Shown: positions 21,946 through 51,618 of the stretch, piece by piece
Layout: each line of letters starts with the position of its first letter
Position numbering within the stretch: position 1 is the first letter of the stretch
NCBI RefSeq assembly: GCF_008709555.1
Contig: NZ_VYIJ01000001.1
Location: 24,809-88,808, forward strand
Length of the DNA: 64,000 nucleotides
From: Thermoplasma sp.
Lineage (GTDB): Archaea; Thermoplasmatota; Thermoplasmata; Thermoplasmatales; Thermoplasmataceae
Reading direction: 5' to 3'
Position numbers and translations under genes: made by a program
Notes under the pieces: model-generated
Databases searched by the model: none
Told to the model about the DNA's origin: nothing
Seen by the model: the letters and a program-made list of their open reading frames with translations, nothing else

Positions 21946-23535
21946 ATGAAAGTTTTACTGATAAAGCCACTTAACCCAACCGGCAGCGGATATACCACAA
22001 AATTTGGTTTTCTGCCGACTCCACTTGGTCTTCAGGTGCTCGCAGCCCAGGCTAGGGTCATAGGCATCAATGATGTTAGAATAGTGGACATGGAGGCAGA
22101 CAATCTGACCCTCGATCAGATGGTTGAATATGTGGCAAAATGGAGACCAGATGTTATCGGAATAACACTGCATGCAACCGCTGCCCATGCATTCTCTCAG
22201 GATCTTGCGAAACGCATAAAGGCGATATACGATCCTCTCATAGTTGCCGGTGGGCATCAGGCAACGTTTGTACCCGGCGAGCTTCTTGACAACGGTTTCG
22301 ATGTCATAGTTCTTGGAGAGGGAGACGAGACGTTCAGAGATGTGTTGGAGCATTACAGGGAGAACATGGATTTCTCCGATGTACCAGGCATAATATTCAA
22401 GATGGGATCTATGAAGATCAGGACGGAGAAAAGAGAGCTCATAGACGATCTGGACAGGCTCCCCATCCCGGCATTTGATCTCGTAGAGAAGGAGAGATAC
22501 ACATTCAAGGTTTTCGGCGAGGGCAGCGTCGCCACGGTTGAAACGGCAAGGGGATGCCCGTATGCATGCGATTTCTGCTCCGTGACGCCAACTTGGGGAA
22601 ACAAGTGGAGGAACAAATCAAACGAACGCATAATGGAGGAACTTCGCATAGTCAAAAAACTGGGCTATAAATGGGTATTCTTCACGGATGACATATTCGT
22701 GGTATACCCCAACGTTGAGCAGCGATCCGATCTTTTCGACAGGATAATTCAGGAGGATCTGGATCTGAAATTCATAGTTCAGATGCGGGCCGACGTTACA
22801 TCGAAGAATCCTGATCTCATAAGGAAGGCAAGCAGGGCAGGGCTCACCATAGCTTTTCTCGGAATAGAATCCGGAAGCGAGGAGGTGCTGAAGGCGATGC
22901 ACAAGGGAATAATGACCTCGGCCTCGGTCAACGCAGTCAGGGTTCTGAACCAGAATAACGTTGTCGTCCTTGGAGGTATGATGCTTGGCGCTCCGTACGA
23001 AAGCCTAAGAGATATGCTTAAGACCATAAAGTTCTCCAGGGTTCTTGCAAGGGCAGGTATAGATGCCATCCAGATAAGCACATACACGCCGCTTCCGGGT
23101 ACAAGGATATTCCTGGATGCGCTCAAGAAGGGGGGCATATTCACCCTCGATTGGTCTAGATATGATATACTGACGCCTGTCGCGAAAACGAAGGTCAATC
23201 CTGCGATAATCCAGGCCCTCACGGCTTACGGCTACTACTCATTCTACGCCTACAAGTGGCTCCATGACAGACTGCACGAAGTTAAGGCCATCGGCTTCAA
23301 GGATCAGATAATGATGAATGCCCAGAGGTTCATAGTCAGAATGATGCCATCATATGTCAAGGACATATTCAAGCTTCCGTCTGACATACTGAAAACCGCC
23401 ATCATGTACAGGGACGGGATGAAGAAGAAGATAGTGTCGGATGATCGCGTGAGAGAACTAATTGCGGACTCAAGTTCCATTGTGTACAGGGAAACAGACG
23501 TAAAAAATCCATACTTTAAAATAAAAACAGAGTGA
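21946..23535 (+). CDS. B12-binding-domain radical SAM protein (GDGT ring synthase-like candidate)
   Basis: A 529-residue enzyme: an N-terminal cobalamin-binding Rossmann domain (about 1-140; RPDVIGITLHATAAH, LIVAGGHQATF, IVLGEGDET), a radical SAM barrel with C204, C208 and C211 in RGCPYACDFCSV, and a C-terminal helical region containing YYSFYAYKWLHDR. The DxHxxG base-off motif is absent, as in many of this class. Architecture and length match archaeal enzymes that modify unactivated carbons, including the Grs proteins that form cyclopentane rings in GDGT lipids. Thermoplasma makes ringed GDGTs, so this is a reasonable candidate. The exact reaction is not proven by sequence. Confidence 0.8.
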   Translation: MKVLLIKPLNPTGSGYTTKFGFLPTPLGLQVLAAQARVIGINDVRIVDMEADNLTLDQMVEYVAKWRPDVIGITLHATAAHAFSQDLAKRIKAIYDPLIVAGGHQATFVPGELLDNGFDVIVLGEGDETFRDVLEHYRENMDFSDVPGIIFKMGSMKIRTEKRELIDDLDRLPIPAFDLVEKERYTFKVFGEGSVATVETARGCPYACDFCSVTPTWGNKWRNKSNERIMEELRIVKKLGYKWVFFTDDIFVVYPNVEQRSDLFDRIIQEDLDLKFIVQMRADVTSKNPDLIRKASRAGLTIAFLGIESGSEEVLKAMHKGIMTSASVNAVRVLNQNNVVVLGGMMLGAPYESLRDMLKTIKFSRVLARAGIDAIQISTYTPLPGTRIFLDALKKGGIFTLDWSRYDILTPVAKTKVNPAIIQALTAYGYYSFYAYKWLHDRLHEVKAIGFKDQIMMNAQRFIVRMMPSYVKDIFKLPSDILKTAIMYRDGMKKKIVSDDRVRELIADSSSIVYRETDVKNPYFKIKTE

Positions 23536-23550
23536 AACAAAATATTTATT

Positions 23551-23584
23551 AATGTATGACGTTTATTTATAGCAATGTATGACG
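23551..23584 (+). repeat. Direct repeat duplicating the start region of the vWA gene
   Basis: AATGTATGACG occurs at 23551-23561 and again at 23574-23584, where it contains the start codon at 23575. Each copy is preceded by a TATA-like stretch (AATATTTATT; TTTATTTATA). The first copy opens a frame of only six codons. It looks like a small local duplication of promoter plus start. Confidence 0.5.
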
Positions 23585-24408
23585 CGGAGATAAGCAGGAG
23601 GAATCCGGGCCTCTTCATCTTTCTCATCGACCAGTCCAGATCGATGATAAGAAAGATGGCAGGTGGCAGTGAGTCCAAGGCAAAGGAGGCAGCTGATGCA
23701 ATAAACAGACAGATTGGTGAGCTCATAATGCGCTGCACCAAGAACGATGGTGTCCGTGATTATTTCTACGTTGGTGTCATAGGTTATGGCGGGGAGAAGG
23801 GAAAGGCTTCCTATCTCCTGGACGGTGAGGTGGTTCCGGTTTCCAGGCTGGCAGAAAATCCGCTCAGGACTGAGAAGAGGATGATGAAGGTACCCGACGG
23901 ATCCGGTGGAACAGCGGACGTTGAATATGAATTTGGGGTTTGGTTCGAACCGGTTGCCAACAGCGATACTCCCATGGTACGGGCGATGAACATGGCAAAG
24001 GAGGCCATAGAAAGCTGGATAAGCGAACACCCATCATCCTATCCACCCATAGTGATCAACATAACCGATGGGCAGTCGACGGACGGAGACCCGTATCCTG
24101 TTGCCCAGTCCATCATGGAGATGGAGACAGAGGACGGAAACCCATTGATATGGAACTGCCATGTTTCCACTGAGAACTCAGCTCCACTGTCATTTCCGTA
24201 TTCCGAAAACCAGCTGCCGAACGATATGTATGCCAGGTCTCTGTTCAAGATGTCCAGCGTGCTTCCAACCAAGTACATAAATTACGCAATTGAGACGTTT
24301 CCCGACATAAAGGATGGTTCAAGATCCTACGTGTTCAACGCTCAGCTTGAGCAGATGATCGAATTCATAGACATAGGAACAAGAGGCGCCATAAGTTCAA
24401 TGGAATGA
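23575..24408 (+). CDS. von Willebrand factor A domain protein (TerY-like)
   Basis: A 277-residue intracellular vWA protein. The MIDAS metal site is shown by DQSRS at 19-23 after FIFLI, with NITDGQSTDGDPYPVA supplying the third loop. No signal peptide or membrane helix is visible. It is followed after 4 bases by a PP2C-type phosphatase and then, convergently, by a membrane-linked kinase, the gene set seen in TerY-P phosphorylation triads. Probably a binding scaffold regulated by, or regulating, the kinase/phosphatase pair. Confidence 0.82.
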   Translation: MYDAEISRRNPGLFIFLIDQSRSMIRKMAGGSESKAKEAADAINRQIGELIMRCTKNDGVRDYFYVGVIGYGGEKGKASYLLDGEVVPVSRLAENPLRTEKRMMKVPDGSGGTADVEYEFGVWFEPVANSDTPMVRAMNMAKEAIESWISEHPSSYPPIVINITDGQSTDGDPYPVAQSIMEMETEDGNPLIWNCHVSTENSAPLSFPYSENQLPNDMYARSLFKMSSVLPTKYINYAIETFPDIKDGSRSYVFNAQLEQMIEFIDIGTRGAISSME

Positions 24409-24412
24409 ACGG

Positions 24413-25108
24413 ATGATAAGCGTATTCCACTACCATCAGCCAAAGCTTGGAAACAGCGAGAGCGAGTATGAGGATGCGTTTTCCTATGATGTCGGCAGAG
24501 GTCTTTTCGCCATGGCTGATGGTTCATCCGAATCTGTGTTTTCCAATGAATGGGCGAAGTCTCTTGTCGATACCTTCGTATCCGGAAAGCACGATATGAA
24601 GCTGGACGATATGGTGGAGACTGCGCTTGGCATGTGGCGATCGAAGCTCCCATGGAGCAACATGAAATGGTTTGTGAAGAACAAGATAGCAAGAGGTTCC
24701 ATGTCAACATTCCTTGGGCTGGAGATTCAGGACGGTGGATTCAAGTCCGTTGCAGTGGGCGATACGTGCCTCTTCATAATAACCCCAGAGGGCATGAAGA
24801 GCTTTCCGATAAAAAATGCATCAGAATTTGGGAACACGCCGAAGCTCATATGGACCGGCAACCCCCTCCTGAGGACGAGGCGATCCGTGAAGTGGGCAAA
24901 CTACATGGAGGGCAGATTATCCGAAAGCGATATCCTGATCATGGCCACGGATTCACTGGCACACTGGATGATCAGCAGGGCTAAGCAGAGCCCATGGAAG
25001 ATGCTGATTGATCATTCCGAAAATGAGGGCGAATTGATAAGCGGTCTGATAAATTCAGGTGAGATGAAGAACGATGATGTTACATTCGCAGTCATCTCGC
25101 TGAGATAG
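24413..25108 (+). CDS. PP2C-family serine/threonine phosphatase
   Basis: A 231-residue metal-dependent phosphatase of the PP2C type. Motif 1 is SEYEDAFSYD, motif 2 is LFAMADGSSE (the DG metal site), then GSMSTFLGLE, VGDTCLFI, ILIMATDSLAHWM, and the C-terminal MKNDDVTFAVISL carrying the last metal aspartate pair. It is co-transcribed with the vWA gene. Its last 17 bases overlap the convergent kinase gene. Likely the antagonist of that kinase. Confidence 0.84.
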   Translation: MISVFHYHQPKLGNSESEYEDAFSYDVGRGLFAMADGSSESVFSNEWAKSLVDTFVSGKHDMKLDDMVETALGMWRSKLPWSNMKWFVKNKIARGSMSTFLGLEIQDGGFKSVAVGDTCLFIITPEGMKSFPIKNASEFGNTPKLIWTGNPLLRTRRSVKWANYMEGRLSESDILIMATDSLAHWMISRAKQSPWKMLIDHSENEGELISGLINSGEMKNDDVTFAVISLR

Positions 25109-26321
25109 CTTTCCGCAGATCTATGCCCCTATCGCTTGAGGATCCCAGGGCTTTTATCATCATGGAGGCAAGCTTCCATGATTTTCCACCCATGGACTTT
25201 ATGTAAGCGAATACCTCTGACTTTTCCGGATTGAGGAAATCGGCCTTTCTGAAAAGAAGGGCGTCTGGATCGTCACCGTTGAACTTCCACGCCTCCGGCC
25301 TCAATGAAAGCACGTATAGTGAGGTATATATGACAAGCGCGGAGAAGTCATCCATATTCTCTGAGAAGTCCGATGGCTTCCTGTCAGGTCTCTGGAAGTT
25401 TTCGTGCCCGTTCTCGCTGGACGGCATATTCTTCAGAGCAGGGACGTACATGCCATCGTAGTCCACGAATATGACCCTCCCGTTGCTTATCAGTATGTTA
25501 TCGCAGGAGAGATCGCCATGCGCCATCTTGTTCATCTTGAGTTCCATCACCATGTTCAGGAATTCACCAGCTATCCTCCTTATCTCTCTTCCATTGTCTA
25601 TATTCTTCTTCAGAAAGGTATACAGGGAATCGCCATCCACCCAGTCCATCTTAAGCACGGGATAGTAAAGAGAGGGATCCTTCATGGTCCTCACACCATT
25701 CTCTATGTATTCGAAGTGAACGATGCATGGTATATTCTTCCCCTGGAGATGTCTACCAATTTCGAAGTAACGCCTATGGAGATCTGAACCCTTAGTGAAG
25801 CATTTTATTGCGTAATAAGCCCCGTTATTCTCAAGCTTGAATATTATTCCATAATTTCCCGAAGAGTAGATGGTGTTTCCGGCCATCTTAACGTTTGGGT
25901 TCCTTATTATTCTGTAACCGCTAAGTTCTCCGGACAGGGAATAGGATGGATTCTGAAAAGCCTGCGCATAATCGAATTGGCTTGGCCATTTCCTGATCTC
26001 TCTGAATGTAACGGTTTCTTCTGATTTTTCAGGCTGCACCCTCTCATGAATGGCCTCTTCCTTCTGATCGGTAACTTCGGACTTTTCTGATTTCACCTCG
26101 ACGGTGAAGTAGGATGATACGAATATGTAGGCAAATACTGCAGCTATAATGATGATAAGATACAGAATTATATGGGTTGATGCCGCGATCGCCAGAAGTT
26201 CAAACCTTGCAGGTGCAAGGATAAAATAGCCTGCGTCCATATAGGCGACGAAGACATATACCGCAGTAAACATGGATACAACCGAACCGAAAAGTGCTGC
26301 GATCCTTACCTGCGGTCTCAA
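25092..26321 (-). CDS. Membrane-anchored Ser/Thr protein kinase-like protein
   Basis: A 409-residue protein with two N-terminal transmembrane helices (about 7-29 and 41-71), a charged linker, and a protein-kinase-like domain from about residue 135. Visible catalytic elements: YYAIK with K173, catalytic loop MAHGDLSCDNIL with D270 (HGDL replaces HRDL), and VDYDG with D287 in place of DFG. All essential residues are present, so it should be active. It is convergent with, and overlaps, the PP2C gene and completes a vWA/phosphatase/kinase triad. Confidence 0.82.
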   Translation of the reverse strand: MRPQVRIAALFGSVVSMFTAVYVFVAYMDAGYFILAPARFELLAIAASTHIILYLIIIIAAVFAYIFVSSYFTVEVKSEKSEVTDQKEEAIHERVQPEKSEETVTFREIRKWPSQFDYAQAFQNPSYSLSGELSGYRIIRNPNVKMAGNTIYSSGNYGIIFKLENNGAYYAIKCFTKGSDLHRRYFEIGRHLQGKNIPCIVHFEYIENGVRTMKDPSLYYPVLKMDWVDGDSLYTFLKKNIDNGREIRRIAGEFLNMVMELKMNKMAHGDLSCDNILISNGRVIFVDYDGMYVPALKNMPSSENGHENFQRPDRKPSDFSENMDDFSALVIYTSLYVLSLRPEAWKFNGDDPDALLFRKADFLNPEKSEVFAYIKSMGGKSWKLASMMIKALGSSSDRGIDLRKAISAR

Positions 26322-26353
26322 ATCAGGAAATTAAGTTAGAATTGAATTTAAAA

Positions 26354-40124: not shown

Positions 40125-40158
40125 TAAAATCATAAATGTATTGCGCACATCGGCGCAT

Positions 40159-43100
40159 ATGTGCAGAACGCCCGGCATACTCATAGTTTTGCTCCTTCTG
40201 CTGTCATGCTATTCAATAACGGCCTCCAATGCGCACTCGATCAATATGGGAGATCCAGAGACCCACTCCGACTACTACTGGTATGGAAACATGACAATAC
40301 AGCATAATGAATCTCTCAATATAATAAACGAAGTTTTCTTTCTATTCGGTAGATCCATTGCCATCTTCGGGAACATGAGCATACAGAACTCAACCTTGAT
40401 CCTAAACGATACTCAGATTGAGGTTATGGGAGGATTGTTGTTGCTTAAGAATTCCACCATAGAAGGTAATGGGTCCATATCCCTAAATTCATCAATTTTT
40501 AGATCCGAGAATTCAACACTTTTCAAGGGCTATAATGGGTCGCTAGCAGCTTCACATTCATCCGTATATTTGATCAGTTCCTATATTTCCGGTCAGTCGA
40601 CGTCAAAAGAATTCAATTACACAACATATAGATATTATAATGACAGCTATCAGCCAGGAGGAAAGGCGGATCTGAGCAGTGAGGCAGAGGCCAATGGTTA
40701 TGCTTACAAGCTTGATATATCGGTTGAATATGAATACGCAAATACGAGCAATCCGGCCGCATTATATGTGGAGGATGAAAATGAATCCCAATATCTGCAC
40801 TTAAACGGATCGAAAAATATTATAACATCAAACTTCACCATCCTTCTCGACTATCCTTCAACCGATCCAGTTCCAGAGATATACGTGGACAGTAATGAGA
40901 GCGATCTGGAGGTCTATGGTATAAATGTTCTTGCCATAGCCAACGATACATATTACCTTTTTGGACCGGATCATTTTGATCTGTACCTGAAAAATAGCAC
41001 GTTGTACAGTGTTGCTTCTGAATTCGAATTGAACGGAATACCACTGTATCTAAATGATGGCCTTCTGAGTCCAGAGGCCACCGGCATATACCTGTACCAT
41101 TCTAAGGCTTACATAGTAAGCAGCGGATCCTGGATGACGAACATAACGCAAATACCGTTCATCAGTTTCATGTCTGAAGCCTACTATTACTCGGCGGTGA
41201 ATATCACTTACATGTTGGATGACCGCACCTATAATTACAGCGGCCAGGTTTATTATGCAGACGGAGAGGAGATAGGGATTAATACCACTGCATGCGATAT
41301 TGCGAATTCGGTTTATCACTCGGCATCGGTGCACATTGTACCGGTTTGGTTGTTCAATGGAACGATGCAATACGATGGAAACTATGAGATCGATATATAC
41401 AACAGAACGGAGTACTTTTCATGCGATCCATTTCCAGATATGGGCGATCAAATGCACAAATTCGTGGGTTCGGTAACTCTACCGCAGGTAAGCATCAGCT
41501 TGCCATATCTGCTTTACACTGGCGTAAATGAAACGATAAATATCACTCTGGAGTCAACATATGCAAACGTCGCCGAAGCATCAATTGAGGTATACCTGGT
41601 AAACAATACATCAATCATACATATTTTCAATCTGTCCATAAACGATCTGCGAGTAAATTCTCCTGAAGAGATCACGGTTGACCTCGGTCTTGATGTATCG
41701 CCGGGCGAATATCAGATATATTACAAGGCGAGTGGATCTGGGATGATTTTCTCAGACCAGTACAGAATGATATTGGTTGAGGATCATGTCAACGTCCTGA
41801 TGCATTGGATCTATCATTACATCATCCCGTTCCACAGACTGTATTTCGAACTTATGCTTTTTGATGCTTCATCGTACTCCTCGATAAATAACATCAGTAT
41901 GCAATTCATATCAGAAGATAATTTATCTATCTGGAGGAATATAACCGTAGAGGTCGATCCTCTTGCATACTGTAATGAAACCTTCTTGATAAACTCGACC
42001 GGTAATCTTACGTCCATTATGATAAGGATGATGTACAATAGATCGATGATGAATTATATTCAATTACAGTCTCAGAACATAACTTTGCTCCCCGTATTCG
42101 ATCGATACGACGTTAATATCGCGGTATATGGTATGCAGATATATCCCATAAACATCAGCCTGGATGGTTCACAATACACCATATTACATAATGACACGGT
42201 GCTGGCTCTGCCAAACGGCACCTATAGCGTTGTTGCAGGAGGAATGAATGGATATCATGTTCACATGCAGAGAAGCTTTGTTGTGAACGGCACTGGCACC
42301 GCATTAAATATTTATATCTCTAGGGCGCTTTACACGATCTCGTTCATATCAAACCTGAAATCAGGGTTCAACGTATCAATAGATCAAGAACCATGCTCCT
42401 CGAATAGCGTATCGCTGCCAAACGGCACCTATGTTCTCGTGGCCTATCCACCCCCTGGATATGATTGCCTATCTCAGAATATAAAAGTCAGCGGAAGCAA
42501 CATGACAATATTCCTGAATTTTAAGCATGCGGTTTACAGTATATCCATAATCATCAATGGATCGGCCATTCCTCAAGAAGTCATGATCAATGATACGATG
42601 TACACTGTGTCAGCGGCGACGAATGTCTCACTGGATTCCGGGGTTTACACGGTAAGAGGCCTTAACTCGACGTACCTGAGAACCGATTTCAATGAGACCA
42701 TCGATCTGCTTTCCAACACCACACTGTATATGATGTATTACAGGCCTTATTCTAGAATCGAGATCAATGCCCTAGGCTATAATGGATCATTTTCACTGCA
42801 GTTCAACTCGTCTCAGTACATCGTACATTCCGGATCCATGATTAAGGTACCATTCGGGTTCTATGCTGTGAGAGCGAAGAATGTGTCGGACTATTCTGAA
42901 ATTTACGGTGATACGATCAATATCAAGTCCCCATCATTAATAATTAACATAACGTTCAGCAGACTTGAATTCATGGTCAATATAAGTATGGATAGGCCGG
43001 CCAAGATCGTCTTTGGAAACATGACCAGATACGGTCAGAACATTAGTGTTCTGGAACCAGCAGGGATCTATTATCTGTCCATCTCCAGACCAGGTTATTA

Positions 43101-43527
43101 TCCATTAGATGAACGCATCATAGTTGACTCTAATTTGACACTGAACCTAGATCTCACAGAGATATATTACAGGATAGCAATAGAATCTAACGTTTATTCT
43201 TTCACAATAGTGATCGGAAATTCCACTTTTTATGCTTCTGGTAACAATTTAACCTTATACTTACCGTACGGAAAGAACATCATAACACTTCTCAAGCACG
43301 GATACAGCGATAACCGCACCACGATCTATGTTTCCGGTAATGATACGGTCTTTCTGAAGATGCACAGGTTATCATCAGAGGTCATCATTGCCCACTTCAT
43401 CAGGAATAATTATCAAACGATCATTACGGTTTCAGTCCTGATGGTTGCAGCCTATTTGGCCTTCCTGAGGCATCTGCGTATTGTTGGTCGGAACGGTGGA
43501 CCAATACGTCGTGATGTTAAGAGATAA
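40159..43527 (+). CDS. Giant N-glycosylated surface protein with PEGA-like repeats
   Basis: About 1122 residues: signal peptide (ILIVLLLLLSCYSITAS), a large beta-rich ectodomain with dozens of N-x-S/T sequons, and a single C-terminal helix (ITVSVLMVAAYLAFL) with a basic cytoplasmic tail. The first part (about 30-150) looks like a right-handed beta-helix. From about residue 660 to the anchor there are five to six tandem PEGA-like units with recurring LPNGTYSVV / LPNGTYVLV / LDSGVYTV / VPFGFYAV / LEPAGIYYLS. Likely a cell-surface or adhesion glycoprotein of this wall-less archaeon. The start is ATG 40159, with TTG 40141 as alternative. Confidence 0.85.
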   Translation: MCRTPGILIVLLLLLSCYSITASNAHSINMGDPETHSDYYWYGNMTIQHNESLNIINEVFFLFGRSIAIFGNMSIQNSTLILNDTQIEVMGGLLLLKNSTIEGNGSISLNSSIFRSENSTLFKGYNGSLAASHSSVYLISSYISGQSTSKEFNYTTYRYYNDSYQPGGKADLSSEAEANGYAYKLDISVEYEYANTSNPAALYVEDENESQYLHLNGSKNIITSNFTILLDYPSTDPVPEIYVDSNESDLEVYGINVLAIANDTYYLFGPDHFDLYLKNSTLYSVASEFELNGIPLYLNDGLLSPEATGIYLYHSKAYIVSSGSWMTNITQIPFISFMSEAYYYSAVNITYMLDDRTYNYSGQVYYADGEEIGINTTACDIANSVYHSASVHIVPVWLFNGTMQYDGNYEIDIYNRTEYFSCDPFPDMGDQMHKFVGSVTLPQVSISLPYLLYTGVNETINITLESTYANVAEASIEVYLVNNTSIIHIFNLSINDLRVNSPEEITVDLGLDVSPGEYQIYYKASGSGMIFSDQYRMILVEDHVNVLMHWIYHYIIPFHRLYFELMLFDASSYSSINNISMQFISEDNLSIWRNITVEVDPLAYCNETFLINSTGNLTSIMIRMMYNRSMMNYIQLQSQNITLLPVFDRYDVNIAVYGMQIYPINISLDGSQYTILHNDTVLALPNGTYSVVAGGMNGYHVHMQRSFVVNGTGTALNIYISRALYTISFISNLKSGFNVSIDQEPCSSNSVSLPNGTYVLVAYPPPGYDCLSQNIKVSGSNMTIFLNFKHAVYSISIIINGSAIPQEVMINDTMYTVSAATNVSLDSGVYTVRGLNSTYLRTDFNETIDLLSNTTLYMMYYRPYSRIEINALGYNGSFSLQFNSSQYIVHSGSMIKVPFGFYAVRAKNVSDYSEIYGDTINIKSPSLIINITFSRLEFMVNISMDRPAKIVFGNMTRYGQNISVLEPAGIYYLSISRPGYYPLDERIIVDSNLTLNLDLTEIYYRIAIESNVYSFTIVIGNSTFYASGNNLTLYLPYGKNIITLLKHGYSDNRTTIYVSGNDTVFLKMHRLSSEVIIAHFIRNNYQTIITVSVLMVAAYLAFLRHLRIVGRNGGPIRRDVKR

Positions 43528-50874: not shown

Positions 50875-51618
50875 ATGAATAAGCTCTTAAGGAAAGTGCG
50901 AAAGGTGTTCAGCCTTAAGGCAGATAACAAGGCTGAAACTGGGATAGGCACACTGATCGTTTTTATAGCCATGGTTCTCGTGGCTGCAGTGGCTGCTACT
51001 GTCCTAATACACACCGCAGGAACTCTGCAACAGAAGGCAACGAGCACGGGCTCGCAGACGACGCAGCAGGTATCTACAGGCATTCAGGTTAACAGCATAT
51101 TCGGGCTGGACTCGGACAAGGCTGTACCAACGCACGGAGTCATTGAATGGATGGCTATACAGATATCAGTTACCGCAGGTAGTTCATCGATAAACCTTGC
51201 GAACGTAACCATATCTCTTACATACCATGGAGTATCGGCTTCTCTGACATACGTTGGCTATGAGAATATAAGCGTTACATCGGCTAAGGACTTCGTGTAC
51301 GGGTTCAACTCAGCAGTTGGCGGAACTAACAACGTGTTCAACACATCCTACTTCAGCACAATAAATGGAACGACCAATGGATCAAAACACTTTGCCATAC
51401 TCGTACTCAGCGATCCTACCAACTCACTGACAGCTCAGTATCCAGTGATATCATACCAGGACCAGGTAGATCTACTAGTCAACGTCAGTGCAGTGTTTGG
51501 AGGAATATCTGAGGGCCAGGCGGTAGTCGGTCAGGTACAGGCTCCAGTTGGATCTCCAGGTGTGATACAGTTTACTGCGCCAGAATCCTTCGTTTCGGAT
51601 GTGATACAGCTTCAATAA
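50875..51618 (+). CDS. flaB: Archaellin (archaellum filament protein)
   Basis: 247-residue filament subunit. The class III signal peptide MNKLLRKVRKVFSLKADNKA-ETG is cut by the FlaK peptidase before IGTLIVFIAMVLVAAVAATV, the helix that forms the filament core. The remainder is a Ser/Thr/Asn-rich beta head with several N-glycosylation sequons (NVTISL, NGTTNGS). It is the first gene of the archaellum cluster and is followed by a terminator-like hairpin before flaC. flaK itself is not in this window. Confidence 0.97.
   Translation: MNKLLRKVRKVFSLKADNKAETGIGTLIVFIAMVLVAAVAATVLIHTAGTLQQKATSTGSQTTQQVSTGIQVNSIFGLDSDKAVPTHGVIEWMAIQISVTAGSSSINLANVTISLTYHGVSASLTYVGYENISVTSAKDFVYGFNSAVGGTNNVFNTSYFSTINGTTNGSKHFAILVLSDPTNSLTAQYPVISYQDQVDLLVNVSAVFGGISEGQAVVGQVQAPVGSPGVIQFTAPESFVSDVIQLQ

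Follow-up and report, generated by a model that had tools for sequence, protein, structure and literature searches.

The TerY-P triad, which combines a vWA protein of the TerY family, a PP2C phosphatase and a serine/threonine kinase, is known as a mostly mobile stress or defence module of bacteria (Anantharaman et al. 2012; Gao et al. 2020; both through PMC11090510 and PMC7699616). Its zinc-ribbon form associates with CoCoNuTs (PMC11090510). Proteins of the same general kinds meet in a thermoacidophilic archaeon, Sulfolobus, whose Arn network (ArnA, ArnB, ArnC/D and PP2A) also employs a vWA protein, kinases and a phosphatase (PMC12852372, PMC7472852); there, the phosphatase is PP2A (PMC7472852), while ArnB comprises a β-sandwich and a helix bundle, the solved structure being that of its paralogue vWA2 (PMC6509490). 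Here we describe a locus in a window of 64,000 nucleotides (nt) from Thermoplasma sp. (GCF_008709555.1 / NZ_VYIJ01000001.1; all coordinates refer to this window), in which the genes for a vWA protein and a PP2C phosphatase on the plus strand converge on a kinase gene on the minus strand, at positions 23575-26321 (Table 1). Judged by sequence comparison, it is an archaeal, lineage-specific variant of the TerY-P triad that has become chromosomally fixed.

The assignment to TerY-P is made because all three PADLOC models, TerY, PP2C and STK_OB, match and because the gene order is conserved. It bears out the first-pass annotation of this DNA, which had located the three genes, named their families and recognised the TerY-P trio, with the qualification that the form is a variant rather than the standard one. 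Pfam is weak on the window proteins (VWA 1.3e-4, Pkinase 2.3e-6), and a Pfam scan of the 231-residue phosphatase gave no PP2C match. We nevertheless identify this protein as a PP2C phosphatase on the basis of its PADLOC match, of PP2C_2 matches obtained by its triad orthologues in genome searches (4e-4 in genome G004, 7e-5 in G014), of two bacterial triad phosphatases that exceed the Pfam cut-off, and of its metal ligands: the putative ligands E20-D21, D36-G37, D180 and D221-D222 are invariant in 16 archaeal sequences and conserved in bacterial ones too. In the vWA protein the metal ion-dependent adhesion site (MIDAS) is intact (D19-x-S21-x-S23, T132, D165), and a DIGTR motif lies near the C-terminus, at residues 266-270. 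Both are conserved across an alignment of 35 archaeal and 33 bacterial TerY sequences, and vWA identity within the genus Thermoplasma amounts to 90-98%. The invariant T269 of DIGTR is one candidate phospho-acceptor, but structural constraints could explain its conservation equally well. Profile searches of solved structures matched zero chains for the vWA protein at E up to 1, although a structure of the ArnB paralogue vWA2 exists, and returned chance matches only for the phosphatase.

The kinase aligns over residues 112-379 with positions 3-268 of the 562-position STK_OB profile and has no counterpart to its C-terminal half. Its catalytic residues K173, D270 and D287, correctly listed as complete in the first-pass annotation, are invariant in 31/31 aligned kinases. 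In an AlphaFold2 model the predicted local distance difference test (pLDDT) exceeds 90 over most of the core, and the top Foldseek matches of the model are protein kinases. The TTG start codon is conserved within the genus, as are the two hydrophobic N-terminal helices that had been noted before, which a hydropathy scan predicts as membrane helices in all five Thermoplasma genomes. Since the other kinase-fold matches in the window genome read as ABC1, Kae1-Bud32 and RIO, leaving the triad kinase as the only Hanks-type kinase found there, and since the triad phosphatase is the only PP2C found, the triad would seem to be this cell's main dedicated Ser/Thr switch. A second, canonical PPM phosphatase exists in Thermoplasma genome G004, away from the triad (C1:708345-708857, locus L190, 57 bits); neither the window genome nor genome G001 yielded a counterpart of it. 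A PPM phosphatase of T. volcanium has reportedly been studied biochemically; the triad PP2C should not be equated with it, given the separate canonical PPM at 708 kb in G004.

Table 1. Features of the triad locus, in window coordinates (aa, amino acids)
Feature	Position	Strand	Details
TATA-like box AAATATTTATTA	23540-23551	+	~29 nt upstream of vWA ATG
TerY-like vWA protein	23575-24408	+	277 aa; PADLOC TerY 294 bits, 2.3e-88, aa 2-272
PP2C/PPM-type protein phosphatase	24413-25108	+	231 aa; PADLOC PP2C 101 bits, 2.1e-29
Convergent 3' end overlap, PP2C/kinase	25092-25108	.	17 nt, from coordinates
Ser/Thr protein kinase	25092-26321	-	409 aa; PADLOC STK_OB 193 bits, 3.1e-57
Kinase core with WP..Y..QN lead-in	25143-25988	-	aa 112-393; K173, H268-G-D270, D287-Y-D-G
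Predicted membrane helix 2, kinase	26115-26171	-	aa ~51-69, hydropathy; model helix 49-72
Predicted membrane helix 1, kinase	26247-26303	-	aa 7-25, hydropathy; model helix 3-28, low-medium confidence
TATA-like box TTTTAAATT	26345-26353	-	~28 nt upstream of kinase start codon

The earlier annotation had made its interpretation depend in part on the three genes staying together in related genomes, and they do: the triad is present in 16 of the 19 genera of the family Thermoplasmataceae (written g1 to g19 below), as well as in Ca. Sysuiplasma (family f14) and, in a diverged version, in family f15. Among 41 relatives, 21 have the vWA gene, each in single copy (21/25 within the family and 0/16 in the rest of the order), and across the class it is found in 42 of 300 genomes; among 390 genomes sampled across the phylum, STK_OB is restricted to Thermoplasmataceae, f14 and f15. 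One scan of named genomes yielded 47 Thermoplasmata loci and 33 bacterial loci. In every one of the 45 Thermoplasmata loci in which all three genes are readable, the vWA and PP2C genes, in this order, converge on the kinase gene (the two further contigs end before the kinase), and this order recurs at the loci of another 17 genera or groups. PP2C and kinase genes overlap at their 3' ends by 7-17 nt in 32/45 loci scanned. No conserved extra neighbour of the triad was found: the surrounding genes change from one genus to the next, each further family being confined to at most 5 of 18 groups. That the trio is conserved against so varied a background rules out a chance association.

The TATA-like box in front of the vWA gene lies at the same distance in 5/5 Thermoplasma genomes, and most other genera shown have an AT-rich box about as far from the gene. 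The kinase box is present in four of the five; the remaining genome has another AT-rich stretch instead. This arrangement suggests two leaderless transcripts, one for the vWA side and one for the kinase side. The first-pass annotation had stated outright that the vWA and PP2C genes are co-transcribed; their spacing of 4 nt, the one observation that speaks for it, is consistent with this.

Some loci depart from the common pattern. In Thermogymnomonas acidicola JCM 13583 (L072/L124), the kinase frame is broken (pieces of 82 + 252 residues, with an in-frame TGA), reflecting either a sequencing error or a decayed kinase, while the vWA and PP2C genes are intact. Locus L133, from genus g6, holds a rearranged triad, in which the PP2C frame extends to 520 residues across the expected kinase start and a kinase fragment remains. 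The high-G+C loci of f15 (L090-L093) carry a diverged triad with a phosphatase gene divergent from the vWA gene and a kinase with a proline-rich N-terminus; the kinase gene is convergent with the vWA gene in L090 and L091, and ~5 kb away in L092.

Compared with the bacterial loci, which come from Trinickia, Methylomirabilis, Chthonomonadales, Planctomycetota and Magnetospirillum-type alphaproteobacteria, the archaeal triad shares the three protein families, their adjacency and order (vWA-PP2C-kinase), the catalytic core of the kinase together with its WP..Y..QN lead-in, the MIDAS and the DIGTR motif. It differs in the orientation of the kinase gene, which is inverted in archaea, whereas the bacterial vWA, PP2C (where detected) and kinase genes all lie on the same strand. 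The kinases themselves differ at both ends. The bacterial core is located at or near the N-terminus, whereas the archaeal core is preceded by an added N-terminal module; and where the classical TerY-P kinase continues into a C-terminal OB fold or zinc ribbon, neither was found in the archaeal kinases, in which every STK_OB match ends by profile position 300 of 562 and the ~140 residues after the HxD motif constitute the end of the kinase domain. Because of this missing C-terminal part, we assign the triad to the family as a variant and not as its STK-OB form. The bacterial C-termini vary as well, from none to more than 1000 residues, and the alphaproteobacterial relatives (305-387 residues) are too short, or almost so, to accommodate an OB fold or zinc ribbon. 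The loci of Magnetospirillum-type alphaproteobacteria and Planctomycetota (L149-L181) have homologous vWA proteins and kinase cores, some of them also without a C-terminal domain. In the kinases of Planctomycetota, Trinickia and Chthonomonadaceae, a predicted membrane helix follows the core, while archaeal helices, if any, precede it. In Magnetospirillum and other Rhodospirillales (L161-L181), we observed close TerY and kinase pairs, with two loci per contig in several species.

The archaeal triad further differs from bacterial TerY-P in being a core chromosomal set outside any mobile context and in a family without TerD. The first-pass annotation had seen no tellurite-resistance genes beside the triad, and this holds for TerD far beyond the window, as TerD-family proteins were found in 0/77 genomes of the family; we have accordingly dropped a link to tellurite. 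While the triad as such was known, the archaeal form differs in being kept vertically, with the kinase gene inverted, the C-terminal domain missing and the N-terminal modules exchanged. Our literature search found no description of this form, but the original 2012 TerY-P analysis and subscription papers were outside that search, so archaeal members may have been mentioned before.

In the archaeal kinases, 103-331 residues precede the WP motif, and they fall into three module types. The first consists of membrane helices, two in Thermoplasma and, by hydropathy, four to six in g2, g15 and f14. The second, in g3, g4, g8, g12, g14 and g17, is β-rich and gives weak Pfam matches to Filamin and Ig_Pom152, so that we tentatively call it Ig-like. 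The third, found in g5, g6, g10, g11, g13 and g16 and apparently doubled in g13, has a PH fold: folded alone with AlphaFold, it forms seven strands and a C-terminal helix at a mean pLDDT of 84.6, and Foldseek ranks PH-like domains, among them the PH domain of GRK2, Tfb1 and Lam6, as its best matches, with probability 1.00. A tree built from the concatenated proteins sets the archaeal triads apart from the bacterial ones as a single group (support 1.0), and the module types map to three clades. The triads of Ca. Sysuiplasma are nested beside genus g2, which suggests, as far as this triad tree can show, that the whole set, including the opposite-strand kinase gene, was transferred together.

We consider it likely that this archaeal TerY-P variant is a phosphorylation switch made up of a vWA protein, a PP2C phosphatase and a kinase with exchanged N-terminal input modules, and that in Thermoplasma the switch is probably tethered to the membrane. 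The N-terminal helices would position the Thermoplasma kinase at the membrane, where it would phosphorylate the vWA protein, targets presented via the metal-containing MIDAS of the latter, or both; PP2C would remove the phosphate and reset the state. The N-terminal part of the kinase would act as an input or positioning module that is exchanged between clades, while kinase core, vWA protein and PP2C stay constant. The output, by this scheme, might be a general envelope or stress response rather than motility. Several observations weigh against such a switch or narrow it. The kinase gene lies on the opposite strand with its own promoter-like element, so that coupling is not enforced by an operon. 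The membrane helices are hydropathy predictions, and the AlphaFold2 model is weak over them and without confidence at the linker 73-100. In several genera the kinase N-termini are of non-membrane types, and membrane tethering is therefore not general. Lastly, the triad was not found in g9, g18 and g19, represented by 15 genomes, several of them more than 95% complete.

The contrast between a constant vWA/PP2C/kinase part and a front end exchanged in three ways separates core from input, and the triad offers small thermostable proteins for working out who phosphorylates whom. With a sole Hanks-type kinase and a sole PP2C found in the window genome, the phosphoproteome of a mutant should be unusually easy to read. 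As to how the triad came to the archaea, we can only offer a speculative course of events, which in its entirety we regard as somewhat improbable: a bacterial-type TerY-P cassette may have entered the chromosome of the Thermoplasmataceae ancestor, lost the nucleic-acid-binding C-terminal domain of its kinase, had the kinase gene inverted and gained exchangeable N-terminal modules for sensing or positioning, to become the main dedicated Ser/Thr phosphorylation circuit of wall-less acidophiles, with a role at the surface or in stress and not in defence.

Defence against viruses, in which the kinase would sense infection and, by phosphorylating its targets, halt either the virus or the cell itself, is the alternative that fares best. 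All three matching models are PADLOC defence models, one bacterial TerY-P system was active against T7-like phages (Gao et al. 2020, as summarised in the review PMC7699616), and TerY-P often accompanies Type II and III-A CoCoNuTs (PMC11090510). However, the archaeal triad is single copy and nearly universal in its family, not patchy; of 87 neighbour genes at 23 loci, no PADLOC defence model matched more than two; and the search of phages and IMG/VR returned no match, that of plasmids two relatives only. The C-terminal OB part with which a defence kinase would touch nucleic acid is not present, and the main text of a 2026 survey of archaeal immunity does not mention TerY (PMC12988326). A housekeeping or stress role is more likely than a possible one in defence, which we regard as rather unlikely overall. 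The triad also shows that a PADLOC 'defence' match can be a core signalling gene.

The first-pass annotation had also raised the idea that the triad does in Thermoplasma what the Arn network does in Sulfolobus, namely control expression of the archaellum, as the archaellum operon shares the window with the triad; the archaellin gene at 50875-51618 is 25 kb from it. Our comparisons speak clearly against this. The distance grows to ~61 kb in G001 and to ~230-385 kb in the complete or near-complete genomes G011, G014 and G020, so that outside the genus the loci are unlinked. Archaellin (PF01917) scores above cut-off in g1, g3, g5, g6, g7, g8, g11, g16 and g17, and not in the seven triad-bearing genera g2, g4, g10, g12, g13, g14 and g15, where g10 has one sub-threshold match and one genus is that of the complete genome G015. 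Conversely, archaellin is missing from the triad-free genera too, and no genus in the set has archaellin without the triad, but this one-way association (9/9 archaellin genera) is not significant, with a chance expectation of ~0.12 given 16/19 and ignoring relatedness. The components differ too: the single 277-residue vWA protein of Thermoplasma lacks the β-sandwich and helix bundle of ArnB, no FHA (ArnA-like) protein was found in five Thermoplasma genomes, the phosphatase is a PP2C and not the PP2A of the Arn network (PMC7472852), and the TerY and STK_OB models have zero matches in 14 control genomes including Sulfolobus acidocaldarius. We therefore reject the archaellum as the main function of the triad, on the grounds of archaellin distribution, gene distance and FHA content, and consider an Arn-like role very improbable. 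That the vWA-PP2C pair and the kinase have separate functions and are mere neighbours, as opposite strands and separate promoter-like elements might allow, is scarcely credible, because the three genes persist together through 17 genera or groups despite otherwise different neighbours and lie in one operon in bacterial relatives.

Upstream of the vWA gene, at a distance of 40 nt, all five Thermoplasma genomes encode a B12-binding radical SAM protein (window 21946-23535), which is not found in this position elsewhere. Since archaeal lipid-ring synthases are among the B12 radical SAM enzymes, the protein may act on membrane lipids. At 40141-43527, the window further encodes an Asn/Ser-rich protein of 1128 residues that starts with a signal-like stretch, has a membrane helix at its C-terminus and looks like a large surface glycoprotein.

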